NCBI GenBank assembly: GCA_021772775.1
Contig: JAJFLH010000004.1
Location: 1 to 64,000 of the forward strand
From: Mariprofundus sp.
Lineage (GTDB): Bacteria > Pseudomonadota > Zetaproteobacteria > Mariprofundales > Mariprofundaceae
DNA: 64,000 nucleotides
Reading direction: 5' to 3'
The notes under the pieces were generated by a model. That model had not been told where the DNA came from. It was given only the letters and a program-made list of their open reading frames with translations, and ran no database searches. This document shows positions 40,653 to 49,554 of the stretch, piece after piece (position 1 is the stretch's first letter; each line of letters opens with the position of its first letter). The position numbers and the translations under genes are program-made.

Positions 40653-41192
40653 TTAAGTTCTCGGAGGTCGTTTGGCCAGTTTGCGTTGCAGGGTGCGGCG
40701 ATGCATGCCGAGTTTACGGGCGGCGGCGGAGATATTGTTGTCACACTCCACTAACACTTTCTGAATGTGTTCCCACTCTAGGCGGCGCGTCGACATTGGT
40801 TGTTCGGTTACATCAGTCATGGTGTCACCTGAGGCACGGCCAAGCGCTGCTACCACTTCATCGGCATCGGCCGGTTTGGCCAGATAATGGGTTGCACCCA
40901 GTTTGATTGCTTCAACCGCCGTCGCGATGCTGGCATAGCCGGTTAATACGACGGTGCGGGTATAGATATCGAGTTGATGCAGCTTATCCACCAGCACCAG
41001 ACCTGAGTCACCCGGCATATTCAGGTCAATGACGGCATATTCAGGCGCTACATCACCAATCAGCTGTAAGGCTTGAGCCACATCGTGAGCAACCAGTACG
41101 CTAAAGCCGCGTTTATGCAGAGCGCCGGACAACACCTGACAATAAACTTTATCATCATCAACAAGTAACAGGGTAGGGAGTTGTTCGCTCAT
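40653..41192 (-). CDS. regA: Redox response regulator RegA/PrrA/ActR
   Basis: A 179-aa two-domain regulator. The receiver has the acidic pocket (LVDDDK) and phospho-acceptor Asp56 (YAVIDLNMPGDSG), then 'VVLTGYAS' and 'YLAKPAD'. A short linker leads to a Fis-type helix-turn-helix, 'NISAAARKLGMHRRTLQRKLAKRP', which is the RegA signature. In alphaproteobacteria RegA controls respiration, carbon and nitrogen fixation in response to quinone redox state. Cotranscribed with regB (1-bp gap). Confidence 0.94.
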   Translation of the reverse strand: MSEQLPTLLLVDDDKVYCQVLSGALHKRGFSVLVAHDVAQALQLIGDVAPEYAVIDLNMPGDSGLVLVDKLHQLDIYTRTVVLTGYASIATAVEAIKLGATHYLAKPADADEVVAALGRASGDTMTDVTEQPMSTRRLEWEHIQKVLVECDNNISAAARKLGMHRRTLQRKLAKRPPRT

Positions 41193-41193
41193 A

Positions 41194-42462
41194 TCAGTTG
41201 CTTACCTTCAAATCATGCAGCGGAAGTATGGTGGTAATGCAGGCTCCACCTCCAGGGTGATTGGCTATTTCAATATGGCCACCAAGCCTTGAGAATACGG
41301 CTTGCGCCAGATAAAACCCCAGTCCATGGCCATGCTTTTTGGTGGTGAAAAATGCTTTGCCCATCTCTTGCATGGCGGTATCACTAAAACCGGCACCAAA
41401 ATCGCGGATGCTTACGCATAACTCATCCATCGACCATGTAGCTTTGACGGAAATCTTTTCAGGTGAGGCTTCAGCTGCGTTGTTTAATAAATTCATAAAT
41501 GCCTGTTTCAGTGTTTCATCTACAACGATCATGGGAGCAGGGGCGTTACCGTTTAAGTGGGCTGATAGGCTTGTTTCAGGATGCATCTCCTGCCATTGGC
41601 TAAGGATATTCTGCATATAGGGCTCGATCTCTTCACTTTGTCCACTCACGGCACGCAATTGACCTGCACTGGCGCTAAGCTGCCCCAGAGTAACTTTACA
41701 GCGATCAACCTGTGAACGCAGGATTTCAATTTGAGTCAGCAGTGCAGGTTGATCTCTATACTCCTGCTGCATCTCTTTCGTCAGTACTGCGATTGTTCCT
41801 AAGGGGGTGCCCAGTTCATGACCTGCACCGGCTGCCATTGTACCGAGCGCAATGACATGTTCGTCACGCAGATATTTCTCGCGTGCTTCGGCCAGTTTTT
41901 TATCACGTTGCCTAAGTGCTTCGGCCATGGTGGCGACGAAAAACAGGATTACACCAACGCCGAGCAGAAAGCTAAACCACATACCCAGTACATGCAGTCC
42001 GAAACCGGAAGCCGACTGAGTCGCATGCTGATGTTGCATCTCTACACCGTTGTGTAGTGGCACATACATCACCATTAGGATTGAGTAACAGGCCAGTGCA
42101 ATAAGGGCCATCGCCCAGACATAGCGTCGGGGCAGTATGGTGGCGACAATAACCAGAGGTAATAAAAACAGCGATACAAAGGGATTTGTGGAGCCGCCGG
42201 AAAAGTAAAATAGTACGGCCAGCATCAACACATCGAGACTAAGATGCAGGAAAAATTCCATTTTGGAGGCTGAGAGTTTCTGATGCAGACGTAACCATGC
42301 GATCAGATGAAAACCTGCATAGATGCCAATCATGAGCACGATTTCCAGCACAGGTAGCTGCACATCGAGTGCGTATACCGCTAAGGTCAGCACAAGTAGT
42401 TCGACTGCAATTACAGCACTTCTGAATAAAAGCAGTCGCCGAAAATGATATGTCTCTAACAT
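41194..42462 (-). CDS. regB: Redox sensor histidine kinase RegB/PrrB
   Basis: A 422-aa sensor kinase with about six N-terminal helices (to about 180). The quinone-binding-type motif GGSTNPF is at 89-95, matching the RegB GGxxNPF signature. The H-box is AGHELGTPLGTI with His215. A cysteine at 255 (QVDRCKVTL) sits where RegB carries its redox-active Cys. The N, G1 and G2 boxes (NLLNNAAEAS, DFGAGF, HGHGLGFYLA) are intact. It phosphorylates RegA, encoded immediately downstream. The upstream divergent region has two RegA-box-like sites and a strong hairpin. Confidence 0.93.
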   Translation of the reverse strand: MLETYHFRRLLLFRSAVIAVELLVLTLAVYALDVQLPVLEIVLMIGIYAGFHLIAWLRLHQKLSASKMEFFLHLSLDVLMLAVLFYFSGGSTNPFVSLFLLPLVIVATILPRRYVWAMALIALACYSILMVMYVPLHNGVEMQHQHATQSASGFGLHVLGMWFSFLLGVGVILFFVATMAEALRQRDKKLAEAREKYLRDEHVIALGTMAAGAGHELGTPLGTIAVLTKEMQQEYRDQPALLTQIEILRSQVDRCKVTLGQLSASAGQLRAVSGQSEEIEPYMQNILSQWQEMHPETSLSAHLNGNAPAPMIVVDETLKQAFMNLLNNAAEASPEKISVKATWSMDELCVSIRDFGAGFSDTAMQEMGKAFFTTKKHGHGLGFYLAQAVFSRLGGHIEIANHPGGGACITTILPLHDLKVSN

Positions 42463-42586
42463 CAGCTCATCTCCATTTTAAAACATTTCCACCTTCAGCT
42501 TGCACAGTGCATGGATGTGATCATGGCGTCCATAGAGAGGTTGCCAATCAATGCTTTGTATCATACGAATTACCATCTGGCGCACT

Positions 42587-42616
42587 AAAAAAGCCCGGTC
42601 AACAGACCGGGCTTTT
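42587..42616 (-). terminator. Minus-strand terminator upstream of regB
   Basis: AAAAGCCCGGTC (42589-42600) pairs perfectly with GACCGGGCTTTT (42605-42616), loop AACA. On the minus strand the stem is followed by six T (42587-42592 read as A on plus). It lies upstream of regB, so it must end either a separate minus-strand RNA starting in the divergent region or act as an attenuator in the regB leader. Confidence 0.75.
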
Positions 42617-42646
42617 GCGGTATAAAACAAGCACGAAAAATACCGC
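42617..42646 (-). ncRNA. Candidate small RNA or regB leader hairpin
   Basis: GCGGTAT (42617-42623) and ATACCGC (42640-42646) form a stem directly abutting the terminator, so a minus-strand transcript would fold into two adjacent hairpins and stop. This is the shape of a small RNA or of a leader with attenuation. Only the 3' end is defined, and no family is recognised. Confidence 0.35.
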
Positions 42647-42730
42647 ATAGGGATGATTCAAACACGGGGCGATGCTTTGCACCCATGTCCTGTGGTTCGA
42701 AAGTTTATTGCAATAGCCTGAGTCGACAAT

Positions 42731-42745
42731 GTGACAAATTGTCGC
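42731..42745 (-). promoter_or_regulatory. RegA/RegR-box-like site 1
   Basis: On the minus strand this reads GCGACAATTTGTCAC, matching 13 of 15 positions of the RegR/RegA-type consensus GNGRCRTTNNGNCGC as I remember it. It also sits in an inverted repeat CGACAAT/ATTGTCG (42724-42744). Mirror image of site 2. Confidence 0.5.
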
Positions 42746-42837
42746 AGTCAAACGGACATCGCAGGAAAAACATGCAATCACTTCATGCCTTTGAGCGTTG
42801 GCTATAACCTTTATCAATAACTGTTGTTATTTTACAT

Positions 42838-42852
42838 GCGACAATTTGCCAC
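42838..42852 (+). promoter_or_regulatory. RegA/RegR-box-like site 2
   Basis: On the plus strand this reads GCGACAATTTGCCAC, identical to site 1 except for one base, and lies 60 bp upstream of the TonB-receptor start. The two oppositely oriented sites, ~107 bp apart between regB and the receptor, suggest binding by RegA itself. Confidence 0.5.
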
Positions 42853-42911
42853 ATTTTTGAGGTCATAGATCGGCCGTAGAGTGCACCCTAATAGCGATTG
42901 AGGAGAGTATT

Positions 42912-45119
42912 TTGCGTATTCTAGAAAACTTTTTTTCCAACAACGTCATAGTCAGTGGCTCCGGTTTTGTCCTGATTAGCAGCATGCTCGCGAGCAGTGT
43001 GGCGATAGCAGCAGAAGAAGTGCCTGTCATCAAAGTGCAGGCTGCAGCGATTGAGAGTGCTAGCAGTGTTACCATTTCACCTGCCGATCAGGATTATATT
43101 CCATCAGATGTAGCTGATGTGTTGAAATCGGTGCCCGGTGCCAATGTAAATAAGAACGGGCCACTTACCGGTATCGCTCAGTATCGTGGTATGTTCGGCT
43201 CGCGTGTGAATGTACAGCTGGATGGTTTGAATGTTGCACCAGCAGGGCCGAACTGGATGGATCCACCCTTAAGTCATATTGCTCCCTCTCAATTGGATAG
43301 TATTACTGTTATTCGTGGCGTATCCCCTGTTAGTGCAGGTGCTGAAAGCATCGGCGGTAGCATCAATGCAAAAACAGCCCATCTGCCTTATTCTGATAAT
43401 GGTGAAGTTGCTCCACACGGTAGTCTCAATACAGGCTATGACGGTAATAATAAAGCCTTCACGACAGGTGGTCAGCTTGGTGTGAGTAGTGAGCGTGATC
43501 GGCTTCAGCTCAACGGAAGTTTTGATAAAGGGCTGGATATGCAGGCTGGCAACGGCAAGGATATTTTACCTACACAATATAAGAGGCGCAACCTCGGTGT
43601 GGATTATGGGCACAGCTTCAGTGCTGGAGAATTTAAGCTCGGTTATAGCAATGAGCGCGTAGATAATTCAGGCTCTCCAGCGCTGCCGATGGATATTATT
43701 TATGTTAAAGGTAATGCGTTTACTGCTGGTTTTCAAAATCATGCAGATAGCTCTGGCATCAAATGGCTGGCTGATGTCCACTACATGAATACAGATCACA
43801 ATATGGACAACTACACCATGCGTAGCGCTCCAGTGATGCTTGGCGCTGCAGGAACGCCTTTGATGACACGCTATGCTTTGACCAATGCAAAGGACTTCGG
43901 CTATAAACTGCATGCCTCTATGCCTGTAGGCAATGGTGATCTCACGTTGGGAACAGACGGCTGGATGGCAAAACATCAGGCTGATGTTTATAACCCGAAT
44001 AGTGCAGCGTTTAGCCTGCAAAACTATAATGGTGTGAAGCGTGACCGTTTTGGTCTGTTTGCTGAGTGGAAATCAGCATTAACGAGCAGTTTGGAGATTC
44101 AGACAGGTGTGCGCTACAGCCGCGTTAATATGAACTCGGGCACAGTGAGTGCCAGTGGTTTTGCCGGCATGATGGCGACGCAAATCAATACATTGGCGAG
44201 TAACTTTAATGCCAGTCAGCTTAGTCAAAATGATAACTTGATTGATATCTCGGTGCTGTTGACGCAAACGGTGAATGATAATCTGAAACTCAAACTTGGG
44301 GCGGCCAGAAAGCAGCGAGCACCCTCGTATCAGGAACGTTATTTATGGTCACCTTTGGAGTCGACTGCCGGTTTGGCTGATAAACGCACATATGTCGGTG
44401 ATGTGAACCTGCGTCCAGAGACGGCATACAATGTCGATGCCGGTTTTGACTGGCAGTCAGAAGGTATCTACTTCACACCACGTCTGTTTTTTAAACGGGT
44501 AAATAATTACATCCAGGGCACATCGCAGACCAATGGAACGGCTTATAACTTTCGCGTGATGCAAGGCAATATGCTTAAAGGTGGTGGTTTCTGCACGGCC
44601 AACCCGCTTGATCCATTTTGTGTACCGCTGCAGTTCTCCAATGTTGATGCAGAGTTCTATGGTATTGATGCCGGTTTTGGTGCCAATATAACCGATCATA
44701 TCGCGCTCGATGGCACCATCAGTTATGTGCGTGGCAAACGCAAAGATATCACTGATAATCTGTATCGGATTGCACCGCTCAACAGTATAGCCAGCTTAAG
44801 TTATTACGGTGATGCAGGCTGGTCACTGAGTGCCGAAGGTAATTTCTTTGGCAAGCAGGATAAGGTGTCACAAACCAATGCAGAGCAAAAAACCGGCGGT
44901 TACAGCCTGTTTAATGTGAGTGGTCGTTATGCCATCAGTCGGGATGTTGAGTTGACGGCCGGTGTTAATAATTTGCTGGATCGTTTTTATCAGGATCATC
45001 TCGCAGGCTATAATCGCATCGGCACAGATGCCGCAGGTCAGACTTCAGCCGTAGCTACCGGAGATCGTCTACCCGGTGAAGGACGAAATTTCTTTTTGCA
45101 GGCCCGTGCCAGTTTTTAA
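42912..45119 (+). CDS. TonB-dependent outer-membrane receptor
   Basis: A 735-aa receptor with a signal peptide (about 1-33, cleavage near AIA|AEE), a plug domain (about 50-165) with 'PSDVADVLKSVPGANVNKNGPL' and 'IAPSQLDSITVIRGVSPVSAGAESIGGSINAKT', and a 22-strand-type barrel to a terminal aromatic strand (FFLQARASF). It recalls the copper-receptor (OprC-like) subgroup by the 'NWMDPPLSHIAPS' plug motif, but the ligand is not certain. It starts at TTG 42912 behind GAGGAGAG. The TonB-like protein encoded 35 bp downstream should energise it. It is divergent from regB, with RegA-like boxes between. Confidence 0.88.
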   Translation: MRILENFFSNNVIVSGSGFVLISSMLASSVAIAAEEVPVIKVQAAAIESASSVTISPADQDYIPSDVADVLKSVPGANVNKNGPLTGIAQYRGMFGSRVNVQLDGLNVAPAGPNWMDPPLSHIAPSQLDSITVIRGVSPVSAGAESIGGSINAKTAHLPYSDNGEVAPHGSLNTGYDGNNKAFTTGGQLGVSSERDRLQLNGSFDKGLDMQAGNGKDILPTQYKRRNLGVDYGHSFSAGEFKLGYSNERVDNSGSPALPMDIIYVKGNAFTAGFQNHADSSGIKWLADVHYMNTDHNMDNYTMRSAPVMLGAAGTPLMTRYALTNAKDFGYKLHASMPVGNGDLTLGTDGWMAKHQADVYNPNSAAFSLQNYNGVKRDRFGLFAEWKSALTSSLEIQTGVRYSRVNMNSGTVSASGFAGMMATQINTLASNFNASQLSQNDNLIDISVLLTQTVNDNLKLKLGAARKQRAPSYQERYLWSPLESTAGLADKRTYVGDVNLRPETAYNVDAGFDWQSEGIYFTPRLFFKRVNNYIQGTSQTNGTAYNFRVMQGNMLKGGGFCTANPLDPFCVPLQFSNVDAEFYGIDAGFGANITDHIALDGTISYVRGKRKDITDNLYRIAPLNSIASLSYYGDAGWSLSAEGNFFGKQDKVSQTNAEQKTGGYSLFNVSGRYAISRDVELTAGVNNLLDRFYQDHLAGYNRIGTDAAGQTSAVATGDRLPGEGRNFFLQARASF

Positions 45120-45154: not shown

Positions 45155-46009
45155 GTGAACAGGCTCATTAATACGGAGCAGTATGCGCAACTCTGTTTTG
45201 CGCAGCAGGCGCGTGAATGTGAAGAGAAGAAAAATGCGTGGTTGAAGCTAGCTGCGTTGGCTGTGGCTGGACTTATTCATGTCGTCATATTGATACAATT
45301 TGGTAATGATTTAAAACCCGCTGCGGCGAAACCGCAGCGGGTCTCACTGTTGGAAGTTGAATTGGTGGCGACAGCTGTTGCCAGCGAAATGCCGAAAAAA
45401 ATAGTACAGGAGCCCATTTCTCCAAAAGTGGAGCCAGTACCAGAGCCTCTGCCAGAACCACTGCCTGAGCCAGAGAAAGCAGAACCAGAATCGCTTCCAC
45501 AGTTAAAGAAACCCGAGCCAGAAGTGGTAAAAAAGCGACCTGCAAAAAAAATAAAAAGCAAACGCCATAAAGTGGTTCAGCCAAAAGCCGTGGCTGTAAA
45601 AAAGGAAATAATCGACACCAAGCCTGTAGAGCCACGTCCACCTCTCCACAGGCCAATTGCCCTGACGCAAGTTGTTCAAGCCGCCACTGATACTCAGACA
45701 ATGGCAGATAAAGAGCGACGTATAAAGCTGCGTCAGCAATACCTTGTCCGCATCATGGCGCTGGTTGAGGCACATAAAAGCTATCCATTGTCGGCGCGTC
45801 GGCGGCATATTGAGGGTGAAATCCAGCTCTCGTTTCAGGTGAATGCAGAGGGGTATGTCAGTGATATTCAAATCACAGGAAAATCATCTGTTCTACGCCG
45901 TGCCAGTATGGATGCTCTACAAAATTCCCTGCCTTTGCCACCACCACCGAAAGAGATATTGGAAGCAAGTCATTCACGTTTCATCATGCAATATCAGCTT
46001 GAACGTTGA
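45155..46009 (+). CDS. tonB: TonB-family energy transducer
   Basis: A 284-aa protein with one N-terminal membrane anchor (about 31-48), a long periplasmic Pro/Glu then Pro/Lys-rich spacer (about 90-160; 'PEPLPEPLPEPEKAEPE' and similar) and a C-terminal TonB domain (about 205-280) with 'YPLSARRRHIEGEIQLSFQVNAEGYVSDIQI'. The usual YP and SS/GG elements fit. It transmits proton-motive energy to receptors such as its upstream neighbour. ExbB and ExbD are not in this window. The start is GTG 45155, with no strong ribosome site, so coupling to the receptor gene is plausible. It converges on, and overlaps by 16 bp, the NMT1-GGDEF-EAL gene. Confidence 0.88.
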   Translation: MNRLINTEQYAQLCFAQQARECEEKKNAWLKLAALAVAGLIHVVILIQFGNDLKPAAAKPQRVSLLEVELVATAVASEMPKKIVQEPISPKVEPVPEPLPEPLPEPEKAEPESLPQLKKPEPEVVKKRPAKKIKSKRHKVVQPKAVAVKKEIIDTKPVEPRPPLHRPIALTQVVQAATDTQTMADKERRIKLRQQYLVRIMALVEAHKSYPLSARRRHIEGEIQLSFQVNAEGYVSDIQITGKSSVLRRASMDALQNSLPLPPPPKEILEASHSRFIMQYQLER

Positions 46010-49000
46010 GGTCGCTCCTCTGTCAGTAGTGCTTCGAACTGTTCAATCGGAAGCGGCTTGCCGAAGATGTATCCCTGATAGTGCGTGCAGCAGCTATTTT
46101 TGAGGGACTGAAGTTGCTCTTCAGTTTCCACCCCCTCAGCAATAACGTCTAGGCCCAAATTGTGCGCCATGGCAATAATGGTTCCCACAATCGCTTTGTC
46201 ACTGCTGTCTGTGGCAATGTCGCGAACGAAAGAGCGGTCAATTTTAAGCTGATCTAGTGGCAAACGCTTGAGATATTGCAGCGATGAATAGCCAGTTCCG
46301 AAGTCATCCAGGGAGAATTGAATGCCGATTTTTTTCAAGGCATTCATGTTTGTAATGGTCTCTTCGATGTCACTCTGCAACATGCTTTCGGTCAATTCCA
46401 GCTTGAGCCGTTTGGGGTTAATGCCATGGCGTTGTACAGTTGTATTTATTTGATCTAAAAAGTCAGCTTGATGGAACTGTTTGGCACTCACATTCACCGC
46501 CAGATTGAGATTACATGTGAGGCTGTTTTGCTCCCATGCTTTTATCTGGGCACAAGCTGTATCCAACACCCACTGACCAATACTCAAGATCAAGCCTGTC
46601 TCTTCTGCCATAGGGATAAATTGTATGGGAGATACCACCCCACGCTCAGGATGTACCCAGCGAATCAGTGCCTCGGCTCCACCTGGACGATGCGCACTAT
46701 CGACTTGGATTTGGTAGTACAGCTGGAACTGCTGCTTCTCAAGTGCATTACGTAACTCATTTTCCAGCTCTGCACGGTCATTGACTACTTCCTGCATTTC
46801 AGGATCGAAAAATCGCAGTGTGTTACGGCCACTTTTTTTGGCCTGATACATGGCGATGTCGGCTTGTTTAAGCAGTTCACTGGTATCGGGATTACAGCTA
46901 AACAGGGCCGCGCCAATACTGGGAGTGCTCAGGCACTCATGCGAGGCAAGCAGATAGGGCTGGCCCAAAGTAGCAATAATTTTCTCGCCAATAGCTTCCG
47001 TCTGCGCAGCTGCTTTGATGGATTGATTACTCAGCTCTTCCAACAACACCACGAATTCGTCACCACCCAAGCGGGCGACGCTGTCGCCTTTGCGCACGCA
47101 GGATTTTAGACGTCTGCCAACGTGCTGTAGCAGTAGATCGCCAATGTCATGCCCTAAGGTGTCGTTAAGCGCTTTGAAGTTGTCCAAATCAATGAACAAC
47201 AGTGCACCTTCCCGCTGGCTGCGCGCACTGGCAACCAATGCCTGCCTGAGGCGGTCAAGCAGCAGTCGACGATTGGGGAGATCAGTGAGAGGGTCAAAAA
47301 ATGCCAAATGCTCAATCTCTTCTTCTGCGGCTTTGCGTTCGGTAATGTCGATGTGTGAGCCGACATAGTGGGTGACTTTCCTATTACGTCCCTTTACGGC
47401 TGATATACTGAGCCATTTGGGGTATATCTCACCATCTTTACGGCGATCCCAGACTTCACCCTGCCATGATCCAGTGCGATGAATGGTTGCCCACATCCTG
47501 GCGTAAAAGGCCGCATCATGTCTGCCTGAATTGAGTATCTTGGGTGTCTGGCCGACGGCTTCCTCGGCCGAAAAACCTGAGGTGTTGGTAAATGCTTGGT
47601 TAACACGTAAAATCACACCATTGGCATCGGTAATCATCAAGCTATCTTGTGACGCGAAGGCTGTAGCGGCGATGCGAAGATTGGTCTCGGTTTGTTTACG
47701 CTCAGTGATATCACTAAATGTGACAACGGCTCCGGTAAGTTGTTCTTCTTCATATATCGGCGTACTGGTGTACTCGACAGCAAAGCTTGAACCATCTTTG
47801 CGCCATAAGACTTCGTCAGCCACTGTATGGACTTTGCCATCGGTAAATGCTGCATACATGGGGCACTGCTCTCGTGGATAGGCTGACCCATCGGCGTGGC
47901 TGTGATGAACCAGATGATGCATCGGTTTGCCTGTAAGTTCATAAGTAGAGTAACCAAGCATCGCGGCGGCAGCGTTGTTCACAAAGGTGGTACTACCCTG
48001 GGTATCGAGGCCGTAGATACCTTCCCCAGCTGAATTCAGGATCAAGTTCTGCTGGTGACGACTACGTTCCAGCTCTTCTGTGATATGTTTGCGTTCGGTT
48101 ATATCGCGACCAACGGATATGAGGTATTTAACATCGCCTGATTCATCATCAATAGCGGAGACTTGATACTCGGTAGGCACTTTGTGTCCATCCTTACAAA
48201 TGAGCTCCAATTCAATTATCCCGACTCCTTCCTGCATCGCTTTCTGAACTGTTGCAGAGGCCCGTTTTAAATCATCGGGACTATAATAGGAGGCCGGTGC
48301 CGGCATTCTTTCGATTTCCGCATCTGTATATCCTGAAATGCGACTAAAAGCATGATTCCAGCGTATCGCTTTGCCTGTCGCGGGCTCAAAGAGGAAGAAT
48401 GTATCGGCTTGAGTATTTAGCGCTGTATCAATAAAGGTTTGAGTCTGTCTCAAGCCTTCTTCATTTTCTTCAAGCTCTTCAGTTCTGCTTTTAACAGCTC
48501 TGCGCAAGCTTATAGTGTGTAATATAAGTAGAAGAATGATAGTGATCAGTGCAGTTATGCCAAAGCTCCAACCGTGTTCTTTCATCATCTCTAAAGCACT
48601 TTCCTCAGGCTGATAAATTGCTTCCGTAACAGTGAAGTTGGCAGGCAACAGGCCTTGGGCGATGTAAGTATCAGCGATGTCCGACCAGCGTTTCTTGCGC
48701 ATATAACCGACCTGAACGACATCGTTCTCAATCATCTTTTTTGTATTTCTCGCTTCAAATTGAAGTTGTTCCAGCGATAGCTTCTGTGCATTGAATTTCG
48801 TTTGAATGATCTTAATCGTCTCATCAATATGCCCAAGCGCATATTGCCAACCTTGTATAGAGGCTTGAGTAAATGCTCTTACCTTTTCAGACTGTTCCTT
48901 AATGCGGTCTTCAGTGGTAACCAACAGATCACCATAGAAGTCGATACCCTGCTCCTGCGGCTGGATAATTCGATAAGCAATGCCCATCAATTTTAGTTGA

Positions 49001-49554
49001 TGCGGTTGATCTGTGACATAACCTGCAAAAGCATCCGTTTTACCGTTGACCAAATCACGGATGTCGAAACTTGTCTCCTGTCTGATGAAATCATCTGAAG
49101 AAATACCCGCAGCCCCCAAAGCCGCATCAATATCGGCATTCAGGCCGGGGACCAGCATGATTCGTTTACCGCGGAGGTCTGAAAAGCTTCTAATGCCTGA
49201 GTTGTCTCTGACAATCAGGGCAAGTGGGGAGTGTTGAAAAATTGCCGCCAGTACTTTGATAGGAGCGCCCTTGGCACGGGCCAGCAAGACTCCAGGGTCT
49301 GCCACGATGTAATCGGCATGACCTCCGAGCAGTTCATCAACAGCGCTTTTGCCGACCTCGCCAGCACGAATCTCAACATCGAAGCCTGCATCGCGATAAA
49401 AGCCTTTCTCGGCCGCCATATAAAAGCCGGCAAATTGAAACTGGTGTTTCCATTTCAGTTGAAGGGTAACCGGCTCAGCTGCTGCGGTTGATATGAAAGA
49501 GAGTAAGCCGATGATAATCATCCAGAGAAAGTTTCTGGTCGTGTTTTTAGCCAT
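45994..49554 (-). CDS. NMT1-type ligand sensor with PAS-PAS-PAS-GGDEF-EAL
   Basis: A 1186-aa membrane protein fusing a periplasmic NMT1/THI5-like substrate-binding domain (about 27-320; 'LQLKWKHQFQFAGFYMAAEKGFYRDAGFDVEI') to a single helix (about 336-355), three PAS domains (about 375-495, 500-625, 630-750), a GGDEF domain (GGDEF at 830-834 with inhibitory RKGD 821-824) and an EAL domain (EAL at 961-963, LELTES, LDDFGTGYSSL, LKIDRSF, AEGVET). Both output domains keep their catalytic residues, so it can probably make and break c-di-GMP. NMT1 domains bind thiamine-pyrimidine precursors or sulfonates in known relatives. The ligand here is unknown. It shares 16 bp with the convergent tonB end. 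Confidence 0.92.
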   Translation of the reverse strand: MAKNTTRNFLWMIIIGLLSFISTAAAEPVTLQLKWKHQFQFAGFYMAAEKGFYRDAGFDVEIRAGEVGKSAVDELLGGHADYIVADPGVLLARAKGAPIKVLAAIFQHSPLALIVRDNSGIRSFSDLRGKRIMLVPGLNADIDAALGAAGISSDDFIRQETSFDIRDLVNGKTDAFAGYVTDQPHQLKLMGIAYRIIQPQEQGIDFYGDLLVTTEDRIKEQSEKVRAFTQASIQGWQYALGHIDETIKIIQTKFNAQKLSLEQLQFEARNTKKMIENDVVQVGYMRKKRWSDIADTYIAQGLLPANFTVTEAIYQPEESALEMMKEHGWSFGITALITIILLLILHTISLRRAVKSRTEELEENEEGLRQTQTFIDTALNTQADTFFLFEPATGKAIRWNHAFSRISGYTDAEIERMPAPASYYSPDDLKRASATVQKAMQEGVGIIELELICKDGHKVPTEYQVSAIDDESGDVKYLISVGRDITERKHITEELERSRHQQNLILNSAGEGIYGLDTQGSTTFVNNAAAAMLGYSTYELTGKPMHHLVHHSHADGSAYPREQCPMYAAFTDGKVHTVADEVLWRKDGSSFAVEYTSTPIYEEEQLTGAVVTFSDITERKQTETNLRIAATAFASQDSLMITDANGVILRVNQAFTNTSGFSAEEAVGQTPKILNSGRHDAAFYARMWATIHRTGSWQGEVWDRRKDGEIYPKWLSISAVKGRNRKVTHYVGSHIDITERKAAEEEIEHLAFFDPLTDLPNRRLLLDRLRQALVASARSQREGALLFIDLDNFKALNDTLGHDIGDLLLQHVGRRLKSCVRKGDSVARLGGDEFVVLLEELSNQSIKAAAQTEAIGEKIIATLGQPYLLASHECLSTPSIGAALFSCNPDTSELLKQADIAMYQAKKSGRNTLRFFDPEMQEVVNDRAELENELRNALEKQQFQLYYQIQVDSAHRPGGAEALIRWVHPERGVVSPIQFIPMAEETGLILSIGQWVLDTACAQIKAWEQNSLTCNLNLAVNVSAKQFHQADFLDQINTTVQRHGINPKRLKLELTESMLQSDIEETITNMNALKKIGIQFSLDDFGTGYSSLQYLKRLPLDQLKIDRSFVRDIATDSSDKAIVGTIIAMAHNLGLDVIAEGVETEEQLQSLKNSCCTHYQGYIFGKPLPIEQFEALLTEERPQRSS

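Follow-up and report, generated by a model that had tools for sequence, protein, structure and literature searches.

The two 15-nt sites that lie between regB and a divergent TonB-dependent receptor gene in Mariprofundus sp., an iron-oxidising bacterium whose related loci belong to Mariprofundus and other Mariprofundaceae (Zetaproteobacteria), are very probably class II operators for RegA, through which regBA would activate its own expression and the receptor and tonB would come under redox control, with copper uptake as the most likely outcome. This proposal for the window, by which we mean the whole 64,000-nucleotide stretch that was analysed, draws on the conserved boxes, their constant distance from a -10-like element, the signature residues of RegB and RegA and the likeness of the receptor to OprC. 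The regB and regA genes and the TonB receptor flank the sites where the initial annotation had placed them:

40653-41192, minus strand: regA, response regulator of the RegA/PrrA/ActR type with a Fis-type HTH (NF033791, E 8.6e-61; MHRRTLQRKL)
41194-42462, minus strand: regB, redox sensor kinase of the RegB/PrrB/ActS type (NF033792, E 2.8e-69, and motifs)
42731-42745, minus strand: putative RegA box 1 in the regB promoter, GCGACAATTTGTCAC (box conserved 5' of regB)
42838-42852, plus strand: putative RegA box 2 in the receptor promoter, GCGACAATTTGCCAC (aligned homologous promoters)
42912-45119, plus strand: OprC-like TonB-dependent receptor, a probable copper receptor (TIGR01778, E 5.7e-57; OprC, E 5.5e-31)
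45155-46009, plus strand: tonB, probably in the same operon as the receptor (PF03544)

The protein encoded by regB shows the quinone motif GGxxNPF as GGSTNPF at residue 89, the H-box HELGTPL as GHELGTPLGT, and the redox-box cysteine as Cys255 in RSQVDRCK. NCBIfam NF033792 is by far its best match, with 234 bits under a cut-off of 350, and because of this lower score RegB is named here by its residues and not as an equivalog. RegA is formed by a receiver domain and an HTH_8 domain with the MHRRTLQR recognition helix; it matches the structure 3RQI and the PrrA domain 1UMQ, and reaches 205 bits against NCBIfam NF033791, below the cut-off of 250.

The initial annotation had described two 15-mers, one base apart, each agreeing at 13 of 15 positions with a RegA/RegR consensus, and a scan found both again at the same coordinates and strands. 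The consensus is indeed the published RegR box, GNGRCRTTNNGNCGC, as quoted in PMC5506826; four of its positions are N, so the agreement of each site amounts to 9 of the 11 informative positions, in the half-site arrangement GNGRC-N5-GNCGC. Full half-sites on both arms are present in the copies at C20:2095 and C20:2701 (contig C20). Both window sites are instances of a single palindromic box, GYGRCA-NNN-TGYCRC, with the extended form ATGYGRCANNNTGYCRCAT. They had also been called oppositely oriented, and they do lie on opposite strands; however, the site is nearly palindromic and box 1 is matched on both strands in the motif scan of the window, so their orientation is uninformative and a meaning for it was rejected. 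Just 5' of box 2, at 42816-42831, there is an inverted repeat, AATAAC-TGTT-GTTATT, which is absent from the aligned relatives and may be bound by another regulator.

The 3.12-Mb genome has exactly three copies of the 15-mer with Y at position 12, against about 0.01 copies expected for random sequence. With up to one mismatch there are five places, namely box 1, box 2, C20:31040 and C20:2095, which precede a cytochrome c gene and a pair of cytochrome c genes, respectively, and one intragenic place on contig C29; C20:2701 and 2716 form a tandem pair, with two mismatches, upstream of exbB-exbD-tonB-receptor. The regulon counts come from pattern searches, in which the 23 genus genomes gave 30 places for the strict box GYGRCAANTTGYCRC (6 for its reversal) and 53 for GYGRCAWWWTGYCRC (14 for its reversal), each palindromic place being counted once and the totals summed by hand from the rows. 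A chance resemblance to the RegR consensus would fit the window-wide count with three mismatches allowed, which does not exceed the chance level, but the exact and combined-pattern counts, the promoter bias and the phylogenetic footprint all speak against it, and on the genome, genus and reversed-pattern counts we rule it out with near certainty. Random copies free of promoter bias, which the initial annotation had named as evidence against its own reading, are the opposite of what was found: the motif is rare, biased to promoters and enriched over the reversed control.

At L012:904-6791 (contig C20:904-6791) a second TonB system, exbB-exbD-tonB-receptor, is divergent from the cytochrome c pair, the former with the tandem boxes 2701/2716 and the latter with its own box 2095. 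The locus L013:4073-8698 (contig C20:30072-34697) encodes an MMPL transporter, a DUF1302 protein and a cytochrome c with cytochrome c and c' domains, and a candidate RegA box lies immediately 5' of this cytochrome gene, likewise in G011 and G006. At L015:1874-5795 (contig C23), a 1012-aa protein that looks like Cas9 adjoins a Cas1-like protein.

Comparison of promoters at a fixed offset from the box led to a predicted -10 element for each direction:

42702-42707, minus strand: predicted -10 TAAACT of the regB promoter, 24 nt after box 1
42877-42882, plus strand: predicted -10 TAGAGT of the receptor promoter, 25 nt after box 2

A TANNNT hexamer begins 24 or 25 nt beyond the final base of the box in all of the regB promoters (16/16) and all of the receptor promoters (18/18) compared, whereas shuffled controls reach a maximum of 6 at any offset pair. 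A sigma-70 scan by itself had yielded nothing usable as a promoter in the gap; it was the fixed-offset comparison that found one. Transcription would start at about 42695 (minus) for regB and about 42889 (plus) for the receptor. No good -35 element was found at 16-18 bp spacing in the compared regB and receptor promoters, and in none of the 34 does the box lie over the -10 or the predicted start. If TANNNT is the -10, the centre of the box falls at about -43, the position of a class II activator. The sequence between the box and TANNNT varies among promoters, which argues for selection on the spacing.

Every genus genome with an intact regB carries the box upstream of it (16/16). In the case of the receptor, the exact GYGRCANNNTGYCRC is found within 400 bp upstream in 17 of the 33 receptor-homologue loci, three from Sedimenticola and four from Halieaceae-type genomes among them, and the reversed motif in 0/33; the exact box is absent from L051, L052 and L059, where the receptor does not adjoin regBA, and from the majority of the Halieaceae-type homologues. 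Receptors distant from regBA retain the box (L058, L065 and L069, for example), as do regB genes without a neighbouring receptor, and because each retains it without the other, regB and the receptor represent two separate targets. The receptor is absent in G003 and G010, where tonB itself is divergent from regB. In the window and in G002 each direction has its own box; in G003, G004, G009, G010, G011, G017 and G034 a single box is flanked by a -10 on either side, and can thus serve both divergent promoters. In the 23 genus genomes the combined pattern of box and -10 was found 42 times and its reversed control 3 times; 51 other genomes of the family gave 33 and 5, respectively (summed by hand). 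These counts ignore kinship, the genomes of one genus not being independent. Five of the six genus genomes without a RegA match are also without a match to this pattern, a co-occurrence that is suggestive only, because the RegA-less genomes are mostly incomplete and the count includes the regB promoter itself.

The regB side of the window has a further peculiarity, located between the promoter and the gene:

42587-42616, minus strand: intrinsic terminator lying 3' of the regB promoter and 5' of the gene, called by the terminator scan and folding into a long perfect stem
42583-42695, minus strand: possible short RNA or attenuated regB leader

The region 42583-42701 folds far better than its shuffles (z = -4.67), and between the predicted start and regB the minus strand (42583-42695) holds two further hairpins besides the terminator, all absent in relatives. 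With a terminator in this place, the RegA-driven transcript may be an RNA of about 110 nt or an attenuated leader. Box 1 might even drive mainly such a structured product, ending at 42587-42616, with regB transcribed from a start downstream. The strong terminator some 80-110 nt past the predicted start 42695 and before regB, together with the fold, would agree with this; however, the genus offers no homologue of the region upstream of regB, except for the box itself, no such terminator separates box and regB in the relatives' leaders inspected, and read-through is possible. We consider it a lesser, though serious, possibility, and one that is compatible with control of box 1 by RegA. Since all Rfam matches were sub-threshold (the best, Leu_leader, with 29.6 bits against 50), no known RNA family is claimed. 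A small frame, MGAKHRPVF..., across the terminator hairpin was taken as a coincidence.

Analyzing the receptor against TIGR01778 (TonB-copper), the score is 194 bits under a cut-off of 472. The HxM motif of OprC is present as His296-Asn-Met298 and the position of OprC Met147 is kept as Met116, but the CxxxM motif is lost, Gly112 replacing OprC Cys143 in this protein and in close relatives. As the Cys ligand is a glycine, the receptor is not to be filed as OprC. The transported metal is more likely to be copper than iron, judging from the OprC likeness and from the NosL and DUF2946 genes among the distant targets. The literature on copper receptors serving heme-copper oxidases also favours copper (PMC12914433), as does the fact that RegA binds copper and that its genes accompany senC in other bacteria (PMC9147068). 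At 45994-49554 on the minus strand, a 1186-aa protein looks from its translation like an ABC-type substrate-binding domain joined in one chain to PAS, GGDEF and EAL domains.

Beyond the family, the rest of the sampled phylum shows little overall excess of the combined pattern of box and -10 (about 90 against about 70 for the control, by hand count), while G359, G119, G363 and G287 individually stand above the background. Twenty distant loci were taken on the strength of their box sequence, with their genes inspected only afterwards, and are a selection, not a random sample; they include ten TonB receptors according to family models, the regB promoters of G119, G363 and G359, and one operon of two NosL-type genes. 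Two of the receptors exceed the TonB-copper cut-off (L244 with 775 bits and L247 with 714 bits), and TonB-copper is the best match in four more. The promoter layout of the window thus recurs in front of regB and of TonB receptors in distant Proteobacteria. G363 has the divergent arrangement of regBA and copper receptor seen in the window, and G276 has receptor, regB and regA in a row. RegA is encoded in 15/15 of the box-bearing distant genomes checked. We advance as a tentative generalisation, with the arguments close to balanced, that RegBA directly activates OprC-type copper receptors in several proteobacterial lineages by a fixed class II design, often from a single palindromic box shared with the divergent regBA promoter, and thereby couples a redox sensor to the import of copper for heme-copper oxidases, a design of which the present arrangement would be a variant with two boxes and a regB transcript interrupted by a terminator as a short RNA or attenuator.

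In the mechanism that we propose, each site, at about -43 and overlapping the position of the absent -35, would be an operator bound by a RegA dimer and work as a class II activator site. RegB would sense redox state through the quinone pool or its cytoplasmic cysteine and phosphorylate RegA, and phosphorylated RegA would raise both promoters together, box 1 providing positive autoregulation of regBA and box 2 acting on the divergent receptor and tonB, so that outer-membrane metal uptake would track the respiratory redox state. The metal taken up would most likely be copper, destined for heme-copper oxidases. Autoregulation and redox control of metal uptake had been judged plausible in the initial annotation, and both gain support, at the level of sequence, from the rarity of the box, its promoter bias, its conservation at regB and the receptor and its fixed spacing to the -10.

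RegA binding to the boxes is itself a prediction, and a different protein, for instance a metal-responsive or another Fis-type regulator, might control regBA and the receptor from them. The metal theme common to the targets would suit such a protein, as would a box sharper than the published RegA sites, which are degenerate (PMC5506826). Nevertheless, published RegR/RegA boxes have the same arms, GYGRC...GYCRC, the box accompanies regB throughout the genus wherever regB is intact, the distant box-bearing genomes that were checked all encode RegA, and the -43 position without a -35 fits an activator and not a repressor, which makes another regulator improbable. It is likewise improbable that RegA binds and represses one or both promoters. 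Regulators of the RegA/PrrA family can repress as well as activate, but a constant 24-25 nt between box and -10, with the box clear of both the -10 and the predicted start throughout the promoters compared, argues for direct activation by RegA, the reading that we prefer.

A sharp, palindromic and position-fixed box would allow the RegA regulon to be predicted from sequence in Mariprofundaceae and in some other groups. Its value lies in the fact that RegA sites have been deemed degenerate and dissimilar, and that motif searches failed in another iron oxidiser, none being found in Acidithiobacillus ferrooxidans (PMC5506826). It would also tie the sensing of respiratory redox state, in a concrete way, to the uptake of metal across the outer membrane. 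Our literature search gave no paper joining Zetaproteobacteria with RegA and RegB, and a direct link at the level of the box between RegA and a TonB receptor appears to be new within the searchable literature.

The RegR box of Bradyrhizobium japonicum (GNGRCRTTNNGNCGC) and the RegA/PrrA sites of Rhodobacter have the same GNGRC / GNCGC half-sites with 5-nt spacing, and their regulators belong to the same family and carry the same recognition helix as RegA of the window. In contrast to those sites, the window box is sharper, with A and T flanking a 3-nt centre, fully palindromic arms and an AT..AT extension, and it stands at one fixed distance from the -10. The receptor resembles OprC, TIGR01778 and CrtA (PMC12914433) in sequence, with the Met147 and HxM positions kept, but departs from OprC in the exchange of Cys143 for Gly112 and scores under the TIGR01778 cut-off; the paper on the copper receptor CrtA makes no mention of RegBA (PMC12914433). 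The regB-senC-regA loci of alphaproteobacteria (PMC9147068) likewise have a copper-supply gene adjoining the redox regulator, although there it is senC, a copper chaperone for the cbb3 oxidase, and here an OprC-like outer-membrane receptor with tonB. A further likeness is found in the iron uptake that RegB/RegA controls in Methylomonas sp. DH-1, where a TonB receptor and a tonB-exbBD operon depend on regA, its loss lowering them to 3-23%, along with feo (PMC13274454). In that organism ChIP located RegA only at feo and not at the receptor or tonB promoters, and the TonB genes were called indirect targets (PMC13274454), whereas in Mariprofundus the boxes lie directly at the receptor and exbB promoters.
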